A stretch of 30,018 nucleotides of DNA, taken from IMG/VR virus record IMGVR_UViG_3300033233_000133, positions 1 to 30,018 of that record, one strand, 5' to 3'. Positions 1-30,018 of this stretch are shown here, piece by piece. Each line of letters opens with the position of its first letter. The stretch's first letter is position 1. The notes beneath the pieces were generated by a model. It searched no databases and was not told where the DNA came from. It worked only from the letters and a program-made list of their open reading frames with translations. The stretch comes from a virus. The position numbers were made by a program, and so were the translations under genes.

Positions 1-67
1 TCCTTAACAAATTCTTAATCGTGTCTTCGAGTAAAAAAGAAATCTCTTCTTCGTGTTCGAATTCAAA
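1..67. repeat. 67-bp direct terminal repeat, left copy
   Basis: Bases 1-67 are identical to 29952-30018 at the other end of the window. The repeat lies inside one reading frame that continues correctly from one end to the other, so the contig closes into a circle of 29,951 bp. This is most simply an assembly overlap of a circular or circularly permuted genome. A true short physical terminal repeat cannot be excluded from sequence alone. Confidence 0.95.
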
Positions 68-17338: not shown

Positions 17339-17380
17339 AAAAAACAGCGGGAGAGTAAAGGAGGTAGGAAACTCCCCCGC
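17339..17380 (-). terminator. intrinsic terminator before terminase genes
   Basis: On the minus strand, GCGGGGGAGT (17380-17371) pairs with ACTCTCCCGC (17356-17347), ten pairs with one G-U, around a 14-base loop. It is followed by TGTTTTTT. This is a textbook Rho-independent terminator in an otherwise AT-rich genome. It separates the early/CRISPR-like operon from the late genes, whose first start codon is only 15 bases further on. Late expression must therefore need read-through or antitermination, or a promoter I cannot see. Confidence 0.85.
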
Positions 17381-17479
17381 ATCGACGTCGCTACTCCTTT
17401 TCTTGTTAAGAGGACAGCCCACCACCGAAAGTCCTCTTGTCCCGCACCCAAAGAGGGTGCACTCCCCAAAAAATTTCAC
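17341..17479 (-). ncRNA. structured leader or small RNA ending at the intrinsic terminator
   Basis: About 140 nt between a TATAAT element and the terminator contain three strong hairpins. The first is GCACCC/GGGTGC (17460-17444), the second AAGAGGAC/GTCCTCTT (17438-17408), and the third is the terminator. A short palindrome CGACGTCG lies at 17390-17383. AAAGGAG at 17400-17394 is complementary to CTCCTTT in the terminator loop (17363-17357), allowing a pseudoknot or an antiterminator pairing. The stretch is much GC-richer than the flanks, and the frames through it have no ribosome binding site. It may be a late leader (like lambda 6S RNA), a regulatory RNA, or less likely a partner of the neighbouring Csf proteins. 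Confidence 0.65.
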
Positions 17480-17485
17480 AACTAT

Positions 17486-17512
17486 ATTATATCGCAATTT
17501 TCAAATTTTCAA
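17486..17512 (-). promoter_or_regulatory. candidate late or small-RNA promoter
   Basis: A perfect -10 TATAAT lies at 17491-17486. Upstream the best -35 match is TTGAAA at 17512-17507, only 15 bases away, or TTTGAA at 16. The -10 is therefore good but the -35 is weak, as in promoters that need an activator or modified polymerase. Start of transcription would be near 17479. The -35 region lies inside the 3' end of the zinc-finger gene. Confidence 0.5.
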
Positions 17513-18011
17513 AATTCAAAAGTCTGGTCAAGGTATTTTTGTAATTTTCGTCTAACAAATCAGCGTCTAAAAATCTCATTACTCTGTCGATGTCTTGGTC
17601 TTGTGGTGGAACTACGGTTTGCCACGCTTTTATGAGAGATTTCAAAAACATTGCTATACGCAAACCTACGATGCTTATGTGTGTTTCTTCGCCGTTCATA
17701 AATGCAATAGCGTCTCGCAAGTCATTTAAATACCTATCAAGCGTAAGGCTTTTGTTTTTCTCTTCTCGCACAACTGAGAACATACTGCCCTCGTTGTGTT
17801 TTCTTCGAAACTCCTTTGAGTGTTTATACTGCTCAAAATCTTGTCTGTCATATTTGTGTAGTCCTTCCCATTCCTTCTTGCCTTTCGTTCTTTCCAAATA
17901 GTAAAGATGCTGATAATACTGAGATGCCTCACTATGACACTGCTTAGAACAAAACTTACGGAACGTCTTGCTTTCAAATTCTTTACCACACCACTCGCAA
18001 GTAAGTTTCAT
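17487..18011 (-). CDS. zinc-finger protein, candidate late regulator
   Basis: The 174-aa protein opens with MKLTCEWCGKEFESKTFRKF, then CSKQC: a four-cysteine zinc finger (Cys5, Cys8, Cys21, Cys25) of FCS/MYM-like style. A basic, tyrosine-rich helical region follows (QYYQHLYYLERTKGKKEW), then a mostly helical C-terminal half. No family is recognised with confidence. It is the last gene before the structured leader and terminator that precede the late operon, the position held in lambda by the antiterminator Q, also a DNA-binding zinc protein of similar length. A late-gene antiterminator or activator role is an inference from position. It could instead belong with the Csf cassette, 11 bp upstream. 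GGAGGCAAAAT precedes the ATG. Confidence 0.6.
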   Translation of the reverse strand: MKLTCEWCGKEFESKTFRKFCSKQCHSEASQYYQHLYYLERTKGKKEWEGLHKYDRQDFEQYKHSKEFRRKHNEGSMFSVVREEKNKSLTLDRYLNDLRDAIAFMNGEETHISIVGLRIAMFLKSLIKAWQTVVPPQDQDIDRVMRFLDADLLDENYKNTLTRLLNFENLKIAI

Positions 18012-18022
18012 ATTTTGCCTCC

Positions 18023-18685
18023 TCAGATATGATTTTTATAACGCCACATTAAAATACCATCGACATTTAGACTGCCTAATCTCTCAAATTCAGGGTCAAA
18101 GAAACTCACAAACCGTGCCTTGTCCCACCCAATCACGGATGCATATTCGTCATAAACGCTCGGATAAGGCAAGTGATGTTGAATAATATACCCCCACACA
18201 TCTTTCCAAGTCCAGTCCTGAATCGGATAAACTTCTCTAATAGATGTATAGAAACTGTTGTTTTTAATACGCATTTTCCTCCTACAAGATTCTTCTTTCC
18301 GCAACCCTATAAAAGATACATCATATCCCTGTTTGCTGAGTTCACTTATACTGGCAAAAAAACCGCTACCTTGAGTATTTTCTCTCTCGGTTCGATAGAT
18401 AACATTTTTAGTACCAATCTTTCTTAAATTAACCATCACTTCTCGCTCTATAACTTTAGGCATAATATTCTCAGGCCAAATAAAGTGAAAAACCGTAATA
18501 TCTGGGGCCTGCTGCAAAACAAGATGTAATAAAACAGTGGAATCCTTCCCTCCAGAAAAAGCAATATATGGCTTCTTGGATTTCGAAAGTGCCTCTCGTA
18601 TAATCTGCTCCGCCTCAAGCAAATGCTTATGATATTCCTCTAATTGCGTATGTATCATAAACATCTTTTCAGTTTGTTTATCCAA
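18023..18685 (-). CDS. cysH: CysH-like PP-loop ATPase (type IV-B CRISPR accessory)
   Basis: The product is 220 aa from a TTG start (18685) that has AGAGGTGG just upstream; ATG codons at 18664 and 18658 are alternatives. The PP-loop SGGKDS lies at residues 44-49, within YIAFSGGKDSTVLLHLV. Later segments FIGLRKEESCRRK and YPIQDWTWKDVWGYI match the PAPS reductase/CysH family, which activates substrates with ATP. The C-terminal ECGLH reductase motif is absent and the protein ends MWRYKNHI, so sulfonucleotide reduction is unlikely. CysH-like genes of unknown role are a hallmark of type IV-B CRISPR-Cas loci. The gene overlaps csf3 by 8 bp, showing it belongs to the cassette. Confidence 0.85.
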   Translation of the reverse strand: MDKQTEKMFMIHTQLEEYHKHLLEAEQIIREALSKSKKPYIAFSGGKDSTVLLHLVLQQAPDITVFHFIWPENIMPKVIEREVMVNLRKIGTKNVIYRTERENTQGSGFFASISELSKQGYDVSFIGLRKEESCRRKMRIKNNSFYTSIREVYPIQDWTWKDVWGYIIQHHLPYPSVYDEYASVIGWDKARFVSFFDPEFERLGSLNVDGILMWRYKNHI

Positions 18686-19403
18686 GCCCCACCTCTGTAA
18701 ATGGGACAGCACACTCTTCTACGTTTCGAATATCCCAGTATGGCGGTTTGGAAGCAATCATAGCAGAATCTTTGTAAAATGACAACATTCGCACAGGTAA
18801 GGGTCTCATAGCCAGCCCGTCTTTTATCCAAGAAAAATCATTGTCTGTGACATTAATTTCAAACTTTCGAATTGCTCCCCATCCAACACGAGTCTCAGAC
18901 CCCAACCCATCCAGTTCGATAAGCAGTTCGTTTATGAATTCCACATCGCCCTTAGCATAAAATCTTACCTTCTCTACGGGGAAATAGACTATCTTCATAG
19001 CATAACTTTTATAAAAACCGCTCCCAACAGGGACTCTGCTTCTTTTTGTTTGCGGTATATATCTATCCTCAAAACGCTTGTATAGAACCTCAATCTTTTT
19101 CATATCTCCATCCAAAATAGATACAGAGGCGTGAAAAACACCGTTAGACTGTTCCAAAGGCACAATCTTATAATATTCTGGGAATACGGTCTCTAAAGGC
19201 ATCTTTGACGGAAGGTTGTAATAATCATCTCCAAGTGCATTTCTCAAAGCAAGATGCGAAACAATTCCATCGAAAAATAACCACGGGTAAGTCAAACTCA
19301 TTGGCGAGGAGAGATGGAAAACAACCTCAAATGGCTTATACGGGTTATTCCTCTGGAGAATCTTCTCTTGGTAGTCCAGTATTTTTTTCTTTATTATTTC
19401 CAT
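18678..19403 (-). CDS. csf3: type IV CRISPR Cas5-like protein Csf3
   Basis: The product is 241 aa, started at the ATG (19403) with AGGTGGG at proper spacing. It reads as a RAMP protein. The N-terminal half begins a ferredoxin-like fold (YKPFEVVFHLSSPMSLTYPW), the middle has RSRVPVGSGFYKSYAMKIVY, and a glycine-rich turn LGSETRVGWGAIRKFEI lies near residue 180. That G-rich turn and the SGFYKS segment match Csf3, the Cas5 equivalent of type IV, which caps the 5' end of the guide in the complex. It overlaps csf2 by 59 bp. It shows no catalytic residues of a Cas6-like nuclease. Confidence 0.75.
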   Translation of the reverse strand: MEIIKKKILDYQEKILQRNNPYKPFEVVFHLSSPMSLTYPWLFFDGIVSHLALRNALGDDYYNLPSKMPLETVFPEYYKIVPLEQSNGVFHASVSILDGDMKKIEVLYKRFEDRYIPQTKRSRVPVGSGFYKSYAMKIVYFPVEKVRFYAKGDVEFINELLIELDGLGSETRVGWGAIRKFEINVTDNDFSWIKDGLAMRPLPVRMLSFYKDSAMIASKPPYWDIRNVEECAVPFTEVGLG

Positions 19404-20223
19404 TTGTCCCACCTATGAAATCCAATACTGCTATAATCTCTTTTTTCTTCTCCTCAATAAAAGACAAATATAAATCTGGACTCATAAACTCAGGCTCGTA
19501 TGAAAAACGAATTTCCCCGTCCCCCTGTGAAGAACGCCCTCCTAAAAATGGAGTCTGTCGGAAAAGATTCATAATGTGACCAAAGCAAGAAAGTTCAACA
19601 TCATTGGGATAATCTAATGCAAAGAAATGGTAAAATAGCGTCCCAGGGATAAAACATTCGTAATCAACCTTCATCTGCACTGCATCTTCGTCCTTGTCCT
19701 GTCTTGGAATCTCCGCCCTACGAGTGATAAATGTATCTCCAGTAAAAAGTCTAACTGACTCCTTCGACTGCTCTACAAATTGTAGTTTTTCTGGTAAAAA
19801 ACTTGCATACTCTTTGCAAATAGGAAAGGCATGTCCAACTTGAAGTTTGCCAGACAAAACTTGATTCCCGATAGACGAACCGAAAATAGCAAGAAGTGGA
19901 AGTGTCTCCCGTATAGTCTTCCTGAGACCCAAATCTATGACACCATAATCTTCCTCGACGCTCTCTAAAACTCCACCAGAATACAAAATATGATGCAGTT
20001 TCAAATTCGGTTCATAGCCCAATCTCGTAAATAAATCCAGAAATGCCAGCCTCCTGAGTTTGCCTCTTATAGAATTGCCAGAAATGTAGGGAACAACCTC
20101 AAATCTCCCCCCGTGGAAAATTGTAATAGTCCTCAAAACAGGAGTAGAACCTGTTTTTTCGTCTCCCCCGTGGAAAATAGGAGTCTTTGCTTCTAAAATT
20201 CCTTCATACTTAACTTTCATCAT
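19345..20223 (-). CDS. csf2: type IV CRISPR Cas7-like backbone protein Csf2
   Basis: The product is 292 aa from ATG 20223 (AAAGGAG upstream; a second ATG follows at once). The start KVKYEGILEAKTPIFHGGDE is the first strand of a RAMP fold. GSTPVLRTITIFHG and VPYISGNSIRGKLRRLAF are the typical Csf2 and Cas7 signatures, the latter a conserved glycine/arginine RNA-binding loop. A second glycine-rich loop, FLGGRSSQGDGEIRF, lies near residue 240. In type IV complexes Csf2 polymerises along RNA. The gene overlaps the Cas11-like gene by 14 bp. Similarity to other RAMPs such as Csm3 or Cmr is possible, but the neighbours argue for type IV. Confidence 0.82.
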   Translation of the reverse strand: MMKVKYEGILEAKTPIFHGGDEKTGSTPVLRTITIFHGGRFEVVPYISGNSIRGKLRRLAFLDLFTRLGYEPNLKLHHILYSGGVLESVEEDYGVIDLGLRKTIRETLPLLAIFGSSIGNQVLSGKLQVGHAFPICKEYASFLPEKLQFVEQSKESVRLFTGDTFITRRAEIPRQDKDEDAVQMKVDYECFIPGTLFYHFFALDYPNDVELSCFGHIMNLFRQTPFLGGRSSQGDGEIRFSYEPEFMSPDLYLSFIEEKKKEIIAVLDFIGGTNGNNKEKNTGLPREDSPEE

Positions 20224-20608
20224 TTCCGTCACTCTCCTTTCTAAAAATATTTTTTGTTTTTCTTGCTTCTCTATACTTCTCAACTCTTAAATATGCAAGT
20301 GCACAAATATAAATATGCTCTTTATAAATCATATCCATCACTTGCTGTTCTTTGGGCTTAAGTTCCTGAATAATCCATACAGCATCCTCTGGCACGGATT
20401 GTATACCAAAATAATTGCATAGTTTAGAGGTAAATTCCTCAAGTGTAGGCTTCCGACTCGCAGCCCTCACGCGATGATTAAAGACATCGTGAATATTCCG
20501 AATTGACTTGAATTTTTTAAAAGGAATAGAAAGATACACTGTCGCGAGTAAATCTGCAATTCTATACTGCAACTCCTCATTTGTAAATAATTTTTGTTCA
20601 CCCGACAT
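20210..20608 (-). CDS. Cas11-like small subunit of type IV complex
   Basis: The 132-aa product is predicted to be almost wholly helical and basic (ELQYRIADLLATVYLSIPFK, HIYICALAYLRVEKYREA). It lies between csf1 and csf2, overlapping both, which is where type IV-B loci carry the small helical subunit Cas11. The sequence of these subunits is poorly conserved, so the call rests on size, helix content and position. GGAGGTGATAG lies nine bases before the ATG. Confidence 0.6.
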   Translation of the reverse strand: MSGEQKLFTNEELQYRIADLLATVYLSIPFKKFKSIRNIHDVFNHRVRAASRKPTLEEFTSKLCNYFGIQSVPEDAVWIIQELKPKEQQVMDMIYKEHIYICALAYLRVEKYREARKTKNIFRKESDGNDES

Positions 20609-21203
20609 AGACTATCACCTCCCATATCGGCATATGTGCTTTTTCTTGCACTCTATTCAAGAGTTCCATCTTGCCTTGTTTCTCTGCCTTTTGGTAAGAC
20701 GTAATCTTGAAAACACCCGTAGACATCTCTGTCTTGCTTAAACCAAGTTCTAATGCCTCGTCATAGAGTTTAAATAAAGTATCTACCTCAGCCTTACTTG
20801 TGAATATCGCACTCTCTGTGAAATCTGTAGAAATATAGAAATGCTCTCTTGACATAGAAACTTTGTTCAAATCTCCTATCCATCCCTGTTTCTGATGCGA
20901 TTGAGTAATATAGAGAAAAAACGGAGGTTCTGGCAAATCATTTAAAACCTGTCTGATTCCCTCTTTTTTCAGAAATTGTATCCCATTAGTTGTAGCGAGA
21001 AAATGTTTCTTCCTGATGTCCTGATTCTTAAAAAACTGATAACAAGAAGGACATAACCCATTACCTGCCTTCATAAAACCCCATCCCACAAAGTTGTCCG
21101 AGAAGGAAAAATCAAAACCCTTCCCTTTCCATCCACACACCACGCAGGTAATTTCCTTGCTTCCCCCTTCTTTAGAAGGATAAATCAATTCTGGTAAATA
21201 CAT
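20598..21203 (-). CDS. csf1: type IV CRISPR large-subunit-like protein Csf1
   Basis: The product is 201 aa, started at the ATG (21203) with GAGGTGGATT before it; a GTG four codons earlier would lie inside that binding site. Cys20 and Cys23 (ITCVVCGWKG) with Cys51 and Cys54 (GNGLCPSCYQFF) form a four-cysteine zinc site, with a glycine/aromatic-rich insert between. This N-terminal finger and the overall length match Csf1, the Cas8-like subunit of type IV. The remainder is mixed helix and strand, with YITQSHQKQGWIGDLNKVS. It is the first csf gene of the cassette. The zinc finger could also occur in unrelated proteins, but the three downstream partners make Csf1 the best reading. Confidence 0.77.
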   Translation of the reverse strand: MYLPELIYPSKEGGSKEITCVVCGWKGKGFDFSFSDNFVGWGFMKAGNGLCPSCYQFFKNQDIRKKHFLATTNGIQFLKKEGIRQVLNDLPEPPFFLYITQSHQKQGWIGDLNKVSMSREHFYISTDFTESAIFTSKAEVDTLFKLYDEALELGLSKTEMSTGVFKITSYQKAEKQGKMELLNRVQEKAHMPIWEVIVYVG

Positions 21204-21211
21204 AATCCACC

Positions 21212-21364
21212 TCACAGGTAGCCACGAAACTTTTTCTTTAAACTCTCAAACTTGAAATGAAGTCCGCTGTCTGTTGATTCCCAAAAAGCATCGATTATCC
21301 ACGAAGCGATAATGATAAAAAGATAAACGATAAGCCAAAAAAGAAGTTGGGTTAAGATCTCCAT
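21212..21364 (-). CDS. small membrane protein (50 aa) before csf1
   Basis: The frame runs from ATG 21364, with GGGAGGAGACG upstream, to TGA 21212. Residues about 5-27 are strongly hydrophobic (TQLLFWLIVYLFIIIASWII), followed by a basic tail ending KKKFRGYL. One membrane span with a cytoplasmic basic tail is expected. Its stop codon lies inside the ribosome binding region of csf1, so the two are probably translationally coupled. Function unknown. Confidence 0.7.
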   Translation of the reverse strand: MEILTQLLFWLIVYLFIIIASWIIDAFWESTDSGLHFKFESLKKKFRGYL

Positions 21365-22326: not shown

Positions 22327-22370
22327 ACAAGGATAATTTTATGAAATTTTGTCCTTATTACAAGGATAAT
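22327..22370. repeat. direct repeat ACAAGGATAAT in intergenic gap
   Basis: ACAAGGATAAT occurs at 22327-22337 and 22360-22370, 33 bp apart, in the 55-bp gap between the nuclease and HNH genes. A partial inverted copy (TCCTT) lies between. The spacing is near three helical turns, so an operator or control site is possible. Confidence 0.45.
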
Positions 22371-23014
22371 CACCCCTCGCCTCCCAATTGTTTTTGCAAA
22401 TGATAAATCTCGCAAAGCCGTTTAAAAATCTCAAATTCGGTGTCGGTATTTTTTTTAACAAGTTCCTCAAAGCGTTCATTTTCCTCTCGGTTAATTCTGA
22501 CAATCATAACTCGTTCTGGGTTCTCGTAGCCGTTCTCAATTAATAGATTTCTATATGCACTGAGTTGATAAACGTATGAATCATAAATTCCCGAGCCTGT
22601 TTTCCAGTCTGCAAGAGTAAGAATGCCGTCTATCTTTCCGTAAAAATCTAATGTCCCGCCGTATTTGTAGCGTTCCGAGACCAAACTTGCCTCAATCAAA
22701 ATCGGTTCGATTGTCTTGTGTTTTTGCCACTCTAAAAAACTCAAAAAACTATTCTCTGCGAGGTCTATAATGTCTTTTGAATACTCGCTTGTATCGGTGC
22801 GTTGCAACTTCAAAAAATCTAAAATCATTTGATGTGCTAAACTCCCAGCGTCAGCGGTGGAGTTCTTAATCTTGTGTATGTCTTGCCCATTTATGCCTTG
22901 CTTCCAAGCCCATTCGATTAGTTGAGGTTTACTCAAAAGCCCGATAATCGTTGTAACTGATGGAACAATTTCGCCACTTTGTAGCGTATAAACTTGATGG
23001 ATTCTGTTATTCAT
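22370..23014 (-). CDS. PD-(D/E)XK (RecB/Cas4-like) nuclease
   Basis: The product is 214 aa from ATG 23014, which has AAAGGAGGTACATA in front; an earlier start is less well placed. Motifs of a RecB-type nuclease are in order: His61 in AGSLAHQMI, Glu108 in LIEASLVS, Asp123 in GGTLDFYGKIDG, Asp136-x-Lys138 in LADWKTGSG, then VYQLSAYRNLL. It lacks the four cysteines of Cas4, so no iron-sulfur cluster is expected. Phage proteins of this type act as exonucleases in recombination or DNA processing. It lies in the replication operon just after small genes following the helicase. Confidence 0.85.
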   Translation of the reverse strand: MNNRIHQVYTLQSGEIVPSVTTIIGLLSKPQLIEWAWKQGINGQDIHKIKNSTADAGSLAHQMILDFLKLQRTDTSEYSKDIIDLAENSFLSFLEWQKHKTIEPILIEASLVSERYKYGGTLDFYGKIDGILTLADWKTGSGIYDSYVYQLSAYRNLLIENGYENPERVMIVRINREENERFEELVKKNTDTEFEIFKRLCEIYHLQKQLGGEG

Positions 23015-23222
23015 TATGTACCTCCTTTGCAATCTCGATAAGTCTTTGAATTGCGTTTTTCTGGTCTAACTTCGGAAGTCTGACTACGATTTTGTAGTCT
23101 CCACTCAGAAGTTGAAAACTCTGAAAAACCTCAAAACCCTCGTCTTTCAGTCTTTTTTCTAACTCCTTCGGTGCATGGATAAAACCGAAAAAGTTGTTTT
23201 CGATAAAATAGCCTGTTCTCAT
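23007..23222 (-). CDS. hypothetical protein, paralogue of the 21624-21881 gene
   Basis: A 71-aa protein whose segment FGFIHAPKELEKRLKDEGFE is closely similar to that of the 21624-21881 gene. It overlaps the membrane-protein gene before it as ATGA and the nuclease gene after it by 8 bp. The two copies probably arose by duplication followed by divergence. Function unknown. Confidence 0.65.
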   Translation of the reverse strand: MRTGYFIENNFFGFIHAPKELEKRLKDEGFEVFQSFQLLSGDYKIVVRLPKLDQKNAIQRLIEIAKEVHNE

Positions 23223-24733: not shown

Positions 24734-25730
24734 AATTTCTTGCCTCCTGTTTTTGTTGTTTCTCTTGTTCTTTAGAGAGCCAAACGTGTATAAGTTTTTT
24801 AACGCTTTCTAATGTAGGTATCATATGTTTTGGGTCTTTTTTCTCCTTCTTGTATTCTTCGATACCTATTTTTACAGCTTTTACGATATCATCATAAGTA
24901 TACATTGAAAGAAGCGATGACGCCGCCCTTGAGTTTTTACCCATTGCGTCATCATCGTTCCAAACAAAGCCCATAATTTCATAAAAGGTTTTGACGAGTT
25001 TGAAAATCTCTGTACCAGAAACTTTGCCAGTCTTTTTCGCTTTTTTCGGCTTCGGCTCTTGCCCGCCACCCGCCGCAATAGATGTGTTTTTGTCTTTTTC
25101 TTTTTCAGTTAGAGAAGGATTTAAAACCTCCCCCTCCATTGTATCTTTAGACACAATTATATTATTATTCTTTAATTCTTTAATTCTTATATTCTTAAGC
25201 GTGTCTTGAGCCTGCATTTCATCTATATTTGTTTGAGTTTCGATTTGGATATGATTTGGATATGATTTGGGTGTCTCACTATGTTGCACCGCTTCCGCCT
25301 TATCAATATTAGTTTGAATGTTTTTGATATGATTTGGGTCAAACTCTGTTTTACAATTTTCACTTGACAAATTATTTTGGTATTTCTCATAATTAAGGAC
25401 TGTAATGACTTCTCCACGCCATACCTTTCGCCTTTTAATCATTCCCTCTTCTTCTAACCACTTTAGACACCTATACCATATATCATTTGTGATATCAAAC
25501 GGCAGGGCTTCGTATTCTACACCTCTGAAATGTGCTTCACCTTTTTTATATGAGTTGTTATTTACAAAACTGACTTTTAATAAGATGTATATCCAGCATA
25601 CGACCCAACTTGATGGTTTTGTCTCCCAGATTTTGCTTTCGGTGATTTGTCTATAGAGTTTTATCCAGCCACCGTAAGACTCTTGCGGTTCTTTGACTTC
25701 ATTGACTTCGCTTTGATTGTTGTTATCCAT
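24723..25730 (-). CDS. replication initiator, winged-helix / DnaD-like
   Basis: The product is 335 aa from ATG 25730 (MDNNNQSEV). An open extension of 21 codons upstream would run through the 5' hairpin and is rejected. Residues about 20-115 are a phage replisome organiser-like winged helix (GWIKLYRQITESKIW, WIYILLKVSFVNN, WYRCLKWLEEEGMIKRRKVW). The low-complexity middle (about 120-215) is encoded by iterons and an AT-rich tract. The C-terminal domain (about 245-335) has a DnaD-like helical end with YDDIVKAVKIGIEEYKK. It should bind the origin within its own gene and load the helicase encoded next. A repeated protein segment, PNHIKNIQTNID and PNHIQIETQTNID, results from the DNA repeats. Confidence 0.82.
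   Translation of the reverse strand: MDNNNQSEVNEVKEPQESYGGWIKLYRQITESKIWETKPSSWVVCWIYILLKVSFVNNNSYKKGEAHFRGVEYEALPFDITNDIWYRCLKWLEEEGMIKRRKVWRGEVITVLNYEKYQNNLSSENCKTEFDPNHIKNIQTNIDKAEAVQHSETPKSYPNHIQIETQTNIDEMQAQDTLKNIRIKELKNNNIIVSKDTMEGEVLNPSLTEKEKDKNTSIAAGGGQEPKPKKAKKTGKVSGTEIFKLVKTFYEIMGFVWNDDDAMGKNSRAASSLLSMYTYDDIVKAVKIGIEEYKKEKKDPKHMIPTLESVKKLIHVWLSKEQEKQQKQEARNYGW
25152..25340. other. candidate origin of replication: iterons plus AT-rich tract
   Basis: Three tandem 11-bp units, GATTTGGATAT, GATTTGGATAT and GATTTGGGTGT, lie at 25242-25274. A fourth site at 25326-25339 shares GATATGATTTGGGT with the array. The 11-bp period is not a codon multiple, so selection at DNA level is likely. On one side lies a very AT-rich tract (25152-25198) with repeated TTTAATTC, a natural unwinding element. 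Iterons beside an AT-rich tract within the initiator gene is the arrangement of lambda ori in gene O. Confidence 0.7.
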
Positions 25731-29928: not shown

Positions 29929-30018
29929 TCATTTCAAATTGTAAAGTTTTTTCCTTAACAAATTCTTAATCGTGTCTTCGAGTAAAAAAGAAATCTCTTC
30001 TTCGTGTTCGAATTCAAA
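29929..30018 (-). CDS. HExxH metallopeptidase-like protein (3' part, repeated at the window end)
   Basis: This is the C-terminal end of the gene whose start is at 358. Bases 29952-30018 duplicate 1-67, and the frame continues to a TGA at 29929-29931. The encoded tail is IKNLLRKKLYNLK. The agreement of frame across the join is independent evidence that the sequence is circular. Confidence 0.8.
   Translation of the reverse strand, partial: FEFEHEEEISFLLEDTIKNLLRKKLYNLK
29952..30018. repeat. 67-bp direct terminal repeat, right copy
   Basis: Identical to bases 1-67. It should be counted once when the genome is closed. Confidence 0.95.

Follow-up and report, generated by a model that had tools for sequence, protein, structure and literature searches.

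Here, we describe a five-gene cassette, carried by a tailed phage, that profile searches and gene content indicate is almost certainly a complete type IV-B effector (Csf) operon of the CRISPR (clustered regularly interspaced short palindromic repeats) class. The phage is represented by IMG/VR record IMGVR_UViG_3300033233_000133, analyzed over its full length of 30,018 nucleotides (hereafter, the window, which is the whole record). The genes csf1, cas11, csf2, csf3 and a cysH-like gene occupy positions 18023-21203 on the minus strand, where the list of open reading frames (ORFs) shows them as a single operon of overlapping genes. The function of type IV-B systems has been open since their discovery, and most known cases reside on large plasmids of hosts that are hard to use. 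Type IV systems on plasmids, prophages and some lytic phages, as well as type IV-B in Bathyarchaeia viruses, have already been published (PMC10848311, PMC11656645); virus-borne type IV-B is not new, and the window is a further instance. New to our knowledge, as far as the open literature goes, are the comparison of filled and empty sites within one phage group, the estimate of selection, the count of IMG/VR records, and the identification of a carrier whose host is named, Skermania phage SPI1.

Gene content of the cassette

The products of the operon are listed from its first gene to its last.

20598..21203, minus strand: Csf1, the type IV large subunit (Cas8-like), with a zinc-finger-like CxxC...CxxC arrangement (PADLOC Csf1_0_IV, 3.6e-27; NCBIfam TIGR03114, 1.1e-5, under the cut-off)
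20210..20608, minus strand: Cas11, the small subunit (PADLOC Cas11_0_IV, 2.1e-32)
19345..20223, minus strand: Csf2, the Cas7-like backbone repeat-associated mysterious protein (RAMP) (PADLOC Csf2_0_IV, 1.2e-67; solved type IV-B Csf2, 7jhy, 1.6e-13; Pfam RAMPs, 5.5e-5)
18678..19412, minus strand: Csf3, a Cas5-like RAMP (PADLOC Csf3_0_IV, 1.7e-52; NCBIfam TIGR03116, 1.4e-20; AlphaFold2 model nearest to type IV-A Csf3 8rc3_F, 4.5e-14)
18023..18685, minus strand: CysH-like PP-loop protein with the motifs SGGKDS and GLRKEESCRR (Pfam PAPS_reduct, 1e-18; model nearest to the PAPS domain of FAD synthase, 8rom, 1.5e-7)

Gene starts were chosen by comparing the window with L002, a separate 7.4 kb contig (a partial genome) with identical operon content at the corresponding place. 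The Csf1 frame is open over 20598-21215, with the ATG at 21203 as the likely start; the frames of Csf2 and the CysH-like protein are open from 20283 and 18712, with likely starts near 20223 and 18685, respectively. The NCBIfam type IV models agree with the PADLOC identities, but their scores fall under the strict cut-offs of these models. The four cysteines of Csf1 form the pairs CVVC and CPSC; the first of the four alone is kept in all 24 relatives compared.

The preliminary description of this stretch had proposed these gene identities, a complete five-gene set and a phage context, all of which are confirmed by the profile searches, the match to a solved structure and the genome content. It had added that the proposal would fall if the two RAMP-like proteins lay outside the Cas5 and Cas7 families or lacked the RAMP fold. 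Csf2 matches the solved Csf2 7jhy over 237 residues, and the three best Protein Data Bank matches of the Csf3 model (mean predicted local distance difference test score, pLDDT, 88.8) are type IV-A Csf3 subunits, followed by other RAMP proteins. The csf1, csf2 and csf3 core genes of type IV-B are present together with a gene for a Cas11-like small subunit and an adjoining gene of the CasCysH kind, which has the PP-motif SGGxDS (SGGKDS here) and no catalytic cysteine. Profile scans of most window ORFs (a few ORFs under ~165 amino acids were not scanned) gave no match to dinG, cas6/csf5 or a Cas10/HD large subunit; the sole helicase found in the window is DnaB, not DinG, and the type IV-A combination of dinG, csf5/cas6 and an array is not seen there. 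Csf2 was also considered as a ribonuclease and rejected in this role: the loop aspartate (GGDEKTG in the window) is replaced by N, E or another residue in relatives, so that cleavage of targets is not conserved among them.

Purifying selection and empty insertion sites

The occurrence of the operon at the matching place in L002, with low ratios of nonsynonymous to synonymous substitution rates (dN/dS), shows that it is not a product of chance. For this single pair, on which the selection estimate rests, YN00 gave dN/dS of 0.17 for csf1, 0.03 for cas11, 0.02 for csf2, 0.08 for csf3 and 0.08 for cysH, next to 0.04 for the large terminase subunit. Purifying selection hence appears to act on all five genes in this line of phages, with Csf2 and Cas11 apparently as strongly constrained as a core packaging gene. 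That the cassette is a non-functional passenger, as its absence from several sister phages might suggest, is scarcely credible: all five frames are intact, dN/dS is well below 1 across two contigs, a result that largely refutes the idea, and most of the 39 viral records described below retain the five-gene set.

Relatives of the phage were gathered by a 19-base search, which found three, and then by a capsid-protein search, which found more. The segment that differs among them and its borders are as follows.

18012..21211, minus strand: whole cargo segment, between the stop of a 50-amino-acid gene and the start of a 174-amino-acid gene; missing from L075/G003, G047, G002, G004 and G046
21212..21364, minus strand: 50-amino-acid membrane-like gene, the left border, conserved among the phages whether or not they carry the cassette
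17487..18011, minus strand: 174-amino-acid zinc-finger-like gene, the right border, directly after the 50-amino-acid gene in cassette-free phages

In five relatives (G002, G003, G004, G046 and G047), with capsid proteins 93-98% identical to that of the window, the site is exactly empty, the 174-amino-acid gene beginning 8 bases after the 50-amino-acid gene. The nearest relative overall, G047 (portal 98%, small terminase 99% and endolysin 91% identical), is among them. The cassette is bordered by a stop codon, together with its ribosome-binding site, on one side and by the following start codon on the other, and neither a transposase nor an obvious target duplication was seen at the borders. 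Because the site is exactly empty in sister phages, the cassette is self-contained, optional cargo. Gain in the line of the window is probably a simpler account than loss elsewhere, given two carriers among many relatives. Foreign composition was considered as a sign of recent arrival and proved uninformative, since the GC content of the cassette (0.387 versus 0.385) and its codon use match those of the rest of the phage. Carriers and cassette-free relatives together make a natural comparison, in which the presence or absence of 3.2 kb is the local difference open to testing.

The same genomes revealed a swap of tail modules within the phage group: against the window and G047, both G002 and G004 have highly identical capsid, terminase, lysis and replication genes and almost wholly different tail genes.

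Search for guides and the proposed mode of action

No array-like repeat was found in the window, as the preliminary description had stated; a repeat at 25251 lies within an ORF and is not an array. There was no match in Rfam. Neither an array nor a recognized enzyme for processing of CRISPR RNA (crRNA) was seen in the window or its relatives, and Cas1 was absent from all 46 records in a search with positive controls. On the minus strand at 17340-17490, just ahead of the small terminase gene, a promoter-like site (TATAAT near 17487) is followed by three conserved hairpins, the third a terminator-like stem in which both arms differ between the window and L002. As a guide for the cassette, this segment was rejected, because cassette-free relatives have it as well and it folds with unremarkable energy (z -0.89); it may be the leader of the late operon or a small RNA of the phage.

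The type IV-B complex of Mycobacterium binds heterogeneous non-CRISPR RNAs (PMC7937560). By analogy, we tentatively favor the view that the cassette encodes a counter-defense ribonucleoprotein that takes up RNAs encoded elsewhere. Csf2, with Cas11, Csf3 and Csf1, would assemble on short RNAs preexisting in the infected cell, the obvious candidates being host crRNAs and other small RNAs; the complex would draw on the RNAs of the cell because the phage supplies no guides, and would thereby withhold or redirect RNA-guided defense of the host. Some role in counter-defense or in conflict between genetic elements is probable, and counter-defense specifically through capture of host small RNAs is possible, if appreciably less secure.

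A related proposal is that the complex acts as a weapon between elements, taking crRNAs from host arrays, or from a rare mini-array, to silence rival phages or plasmids without cleaving them, in the manner of type IV-A. Type IV-A suppresses plasmids through crRNA-guided inhibition of transcription (PMC11656645, PMC12669027), the type IV-B locus of a Bathyarchaeia Fuxivirus carries a mini-array (PMC10848311), and most type IV-B relatives of the cassette are found on mobile elements. We nevertheless consider this rather unlikely here: the missing array, Cas1 and processing enzyme speak against it, as does the lack of a detected DinG-like helicase, and a phage without a recognized integrase would gain little from lasting silencing, superinfection exclusion excepted. 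Improbable, too, is a role in host takeover, in which non-specific binding of host messenger or small RNA would damp host gene expression early in infection. The sequence-independent RNA binding of the Mycobacterium complex and the position of the operon between replication and late genes are compatible with takeover, but the cassette is missing from close relatives presumably infecting similar hosts and so is not needed for infection, and the near-constant CysH-like partner would be left unexplained.

The CysH-like partner

Alignment of 24-28 diverse relatives of the CysH-like protein revealed a conserved PP-loop, SxGK(D)S (with D in most), the motif GxRxxES, and the residues R136 and R191. 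No cysteine is conserved among 28 aligned proteins, so the C-terminal catalytic cysteine of phosphoadenosine or adenosine phosphosulfate (PAPS/APS) reductase, that is, CysH, is not found, and all NCBIfam CysH models score under their cut-offs. The structural model (mean pLDDT 83.8) is nearest to the PAPS domain of FAD synthase, then to CysH, CysD, LarE, GMP synthase and TtuA, a ranking with which phmmer agrees for the solved relatives; template modeling (TM) scores against these structures are just 0.5-0.6, which places the protein in the same superfamily and not necessarily with the same reaction. PADLOC sets it nearest to BrxP and DndC. FAD synthase and CysD transfer AMP; in LarE, GMP synthase and TtuA, too, ATP serves to activate the substrate through its alpha phosphate.

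Previous work noted the absence of the catalytic cysteine in CasCysH and proposed AMPylation of a substrate (PMC8175902), and the CysH-like protein has also been termed inactivated (PMC11656645). The motifs and the predicted fold support the former view, of a protein that is dead as a reductase but possibly alive as an AMP-transferring ATPase; we regard this chemistry as plausible, at close to even chances. Within the proposed ribonucleoprotein, the intact PP-loop site would split ATP at the alpha phosphate, with no sulfate reduction, and a nucleic acid or nucleotide held by the complex would receive AMP from the partner or be activated by it in some other way. The full combination would be a new kind of counter-defense machine, and is decidedly unlikely as a whole: a guide-less Cas7 filament would capture whatever small RNAs are in the cell and link them to a CysH-like enzyme that transfers AMP at the expense of ATP, marking or inactivating nucleic acids that belong to host defense.

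DNA-modification genes in relatives

Five of the six cassette-free relatives examined carry genes for DNA methylases or 7-deazaguanine-type DNA modification, both anti-restriction functions. These comprise a ParB-methylase fusion in G002 (phrog_498, 1.3e-96), a DNA methylase in G004 and G049 (phrog_67, 1e-70; Pfam, 8.6e-35), and, in G003 (L081:3662-5772), a Vut_1/YhhQ-type transporter (5.2e-40) adjoining a queuine-transferase-like (DpdA-like) protein (phrog_887, 1.1e-51); in G048 (L187:11597-14171), QueF (2e-14) lies in the middle of such a pair. DpdA, QueF and YhhQ are parts of the 7-deazaguanine DNA-modification pathway that shields phage DNA from restriction (PMC6884629). No methylase was seen in either cassette carrier, the window or the partial L002. 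This pattern fits a counter-defense slot in these phages. As a plain substitute for a DNA-modification gene, the cassette was rejected: within the genus, 0 of 2 carriers against 5 of 6 others (Fisher-type chance ~0.11, by hand) is too few, and among 38 other IMG/VR records, 15 have methylase genes alongside csf2, leaving the idea unsupported in general.

The presence of such modules in most sister phages, the intact PP-loop site, the proximity to BrxP and DndC, and the published AMPylation proposal could also point to a nucleic-acid modification machine, in which the CysH-like enzyme attaches AMP or another group to phage or host nucleic acid and the Csf complex provides targeting or substrate, protecting phage DNA or RNA as do the methylase or DpdA modules. 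This, too, seems unlikely: phosphorothioation is hard to reconcile with the lack of the CysH/DndC catalytic cysteine (PMC8175902; no conserved cysteine in our alignment), and methylases accompany the cassette elsewhere.

Several observations weigh against the counter-defense ribonucleoprotein itself. G047, the nearest cassette-free relative, has no detected methylase or DpdA-like gene, only a DUF559-like nuclease; the modification modules sit at differing positions in the relatives, and the genomes are few; and the co-occurrence of methylases with csf2 cuts against it as well. Furthermore, the published RNA binding was obtained with recombinant Mycobacterium proteins, and the bound RNAs are possibly unlike the natural ones. 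The counter-defense role is based on analogy and genome context. The anatomy of the cassette, the selection on it and its behavior as cargo are read from the genomes; the remainder of the mechanism we infer.

Spread across viruses, plasmids and chromosomes

A survey using one peptide pattern from the Csf2 alignment recovered at least 39 IMG/VR records and 22 genome contigs. In an iterated, custom-built profile scan, csf1 adjoins csf2 in 39 of 39 IMG/VR records, and csf1, csf2, csf3 and the CysH-like gene are all present in 32, with several others stopping at a contig border; the CysH profile may also pick up other PAPS-family proteins. A terminase profile matched in 15 of the 38 records tested, so at least these are tailed-phage-like, and the remainder may be plasmids or pieces of proviruses. 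The Csf2 tree demands at least 10 changes of the label 'virus', and the csf set has thus moved repeatedly among viruses, plasmids and chromosomes. In this tree, the closest neighbors of the window are two short contigs of metagenome-assembled genomes (MAGs), two viral contigs and a Thermococcus plasmid; among the sequences included, which did not comprise those of types IV-A or IV-C, the window Csf2 groups with other csf1-cas11-csf2-csf3-cysH loci, including that of Thermococcus nautili (97/94). The commonness of the csf set in viral records shifts the question of type IV-B from plasmid biology towards phage biology.

Skermania phage SPI1 (KR011061, 55.7 kb, from wastewater) has all five genes of the cassette in unchanged order as Orf40-44, each labeled 'hypothetical protein'. 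PADLOC confirms Csf1, Cas11, Csf2 and Csf3, and Orf44 aligns with the CysH-like family. The SPI1 genome gave no integrase or resolvase profile match, and no paper mentioning SPI1 was found in the literature searched. Growing on Skermania piniformis, it is a sequenced phage with a named host in which the unannotated module could be tested.

The survey also exposed variant loci. In a viral contig (L025:7386-8675), a single ORF has a Cas11-like helical domain apparently inserted within Csf2, ahead of the VPVISGNSIRG motif, as a natural Cas7-Cas11 fusion. In two haloarchaeal plasmids (L006:7704-10524 and L007:6364-7795), a DUF3440 PAPS-family protein downstream of the csf genes replaces the usual CysH-like gene; in L007, it adjoins a ParB-like gene, a pair we take to be IbrA/IbrB-like. 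Array-like direct repeats with a spacing of 66-74 lie beside csf2/csf3-like genes in Bacillota MAGs (L072:10636-10931 and L071:3361-3519); the gene order there differs, and these loci are not type IV-B, perhaps representing another type IV or type III variant.

The phage genome

The window ends share identical bases.

1..67, plus strand: direct terminal repeat, copy 1; 67 identical bases, by which the ends can be joined to a circle
29952..30018, plus strand: direct terminal repeat, copy 2

Because of this repeat, the record is most likely a complete genome of ~29,951 bp, circularly closed or permuted, of a tailed phage; a gene truncated at the left end continues across the joined ends to a stop. 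Profile scans identified terminase, portal, protease, capsid, tape measure, tail, endolysin, DnaB helicase and DnaD-like loader genes, with the cassette operon placed after the replication genes and before the late genes. A profile search of the window for tyrosine and serine recombinases, whose controls worked, found none. A 68-amino-acid excisionase-like DNA-binding protein is encoded, and the phage may, for this reason, have had a temperate past. The preliminary idea of virus-carried type IV-B is borne out and extended: the genome is probably complete and without a recognizable integrase, the cassette is optional cargo, and virus-borne type IV-B has published precedents.

No tRNA genes were found in the window, and no direct DNA relatives among GenBank phages. 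The terminase is nearest to that of Thermoanaerobacterium phage THSA-485A (58% identical), merely a hint on the host. A PD-(D/E)xK-type exonuclease (22370-23032, minus strand; phrog_298, 1.2e-30) has a weak match to a CRISPR-associated family; its best matches are general phage exonuclease families, and it lies outside the cassette because it is common to cassette-free relatives. At 402-1133 on the minus strand, a protein up to 99.6% identical in relatives combines an N-terminal hydrophobic stretch with a transglutaminase-like domain (DUF553, 2.8e-5).

Comparison with known systems

The cassette shares its Csf3 fold with type IV-A, in which Csf proteins accompany DinG and Csf5/Cas6, whereas the Csf1 and Csf2 profiles of that type are more distant and the window has a CysH-like gene in place of a detected dinG, cas6 or array. 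The CysH-like subunit has the fold and nucleotide-binding motifs of the FAD synthase, CysD and CysH PP-loop enzymes, but its family keeps no catalytic or iron-sulfur cysteines. With the type IV-B system of Mycobacterium sp. JS623 (PDB 7jhy, PMC7937560), the window shares its subunits, the homology of Csf2 noted above and, as in the published complex, the lack of array-derived guides; that system is borne on a plasmid of an actinobacterium, whereas the window is a tailed phage, with Csf2 ~26-30% identical to actinobacterial relatives. SPI1 differs as a 55.7-kb actinobacterial phage with a Csf2 ~26% identical to that of the window.

The 'Fuxiviridae' type IV-B of a Bathyarchaeia virus is likewise virus-encoded, with csf1-csf2-csf3-cas11, an adjoining CysH-like gene and no adaptation module, and its genome also has a gene for a PD-(D/E)xK (Cas4/RecB-like) nuclease (PMC10848311), whereas the exonuclease of the window is best matched by general phage families; it is an archaeal virus with a two-repeat mini-array, in contrast to the bacterial-type tailed phage described here, where no array was found. 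The Thermococcus nautili plasmid THER333_p (NZ_OX281346) differs in being an archaeal, 103-kb plasmid, yet has the same gene order, with Csf2 39.8% and the CysH-like protein 42% identical to those of the window.

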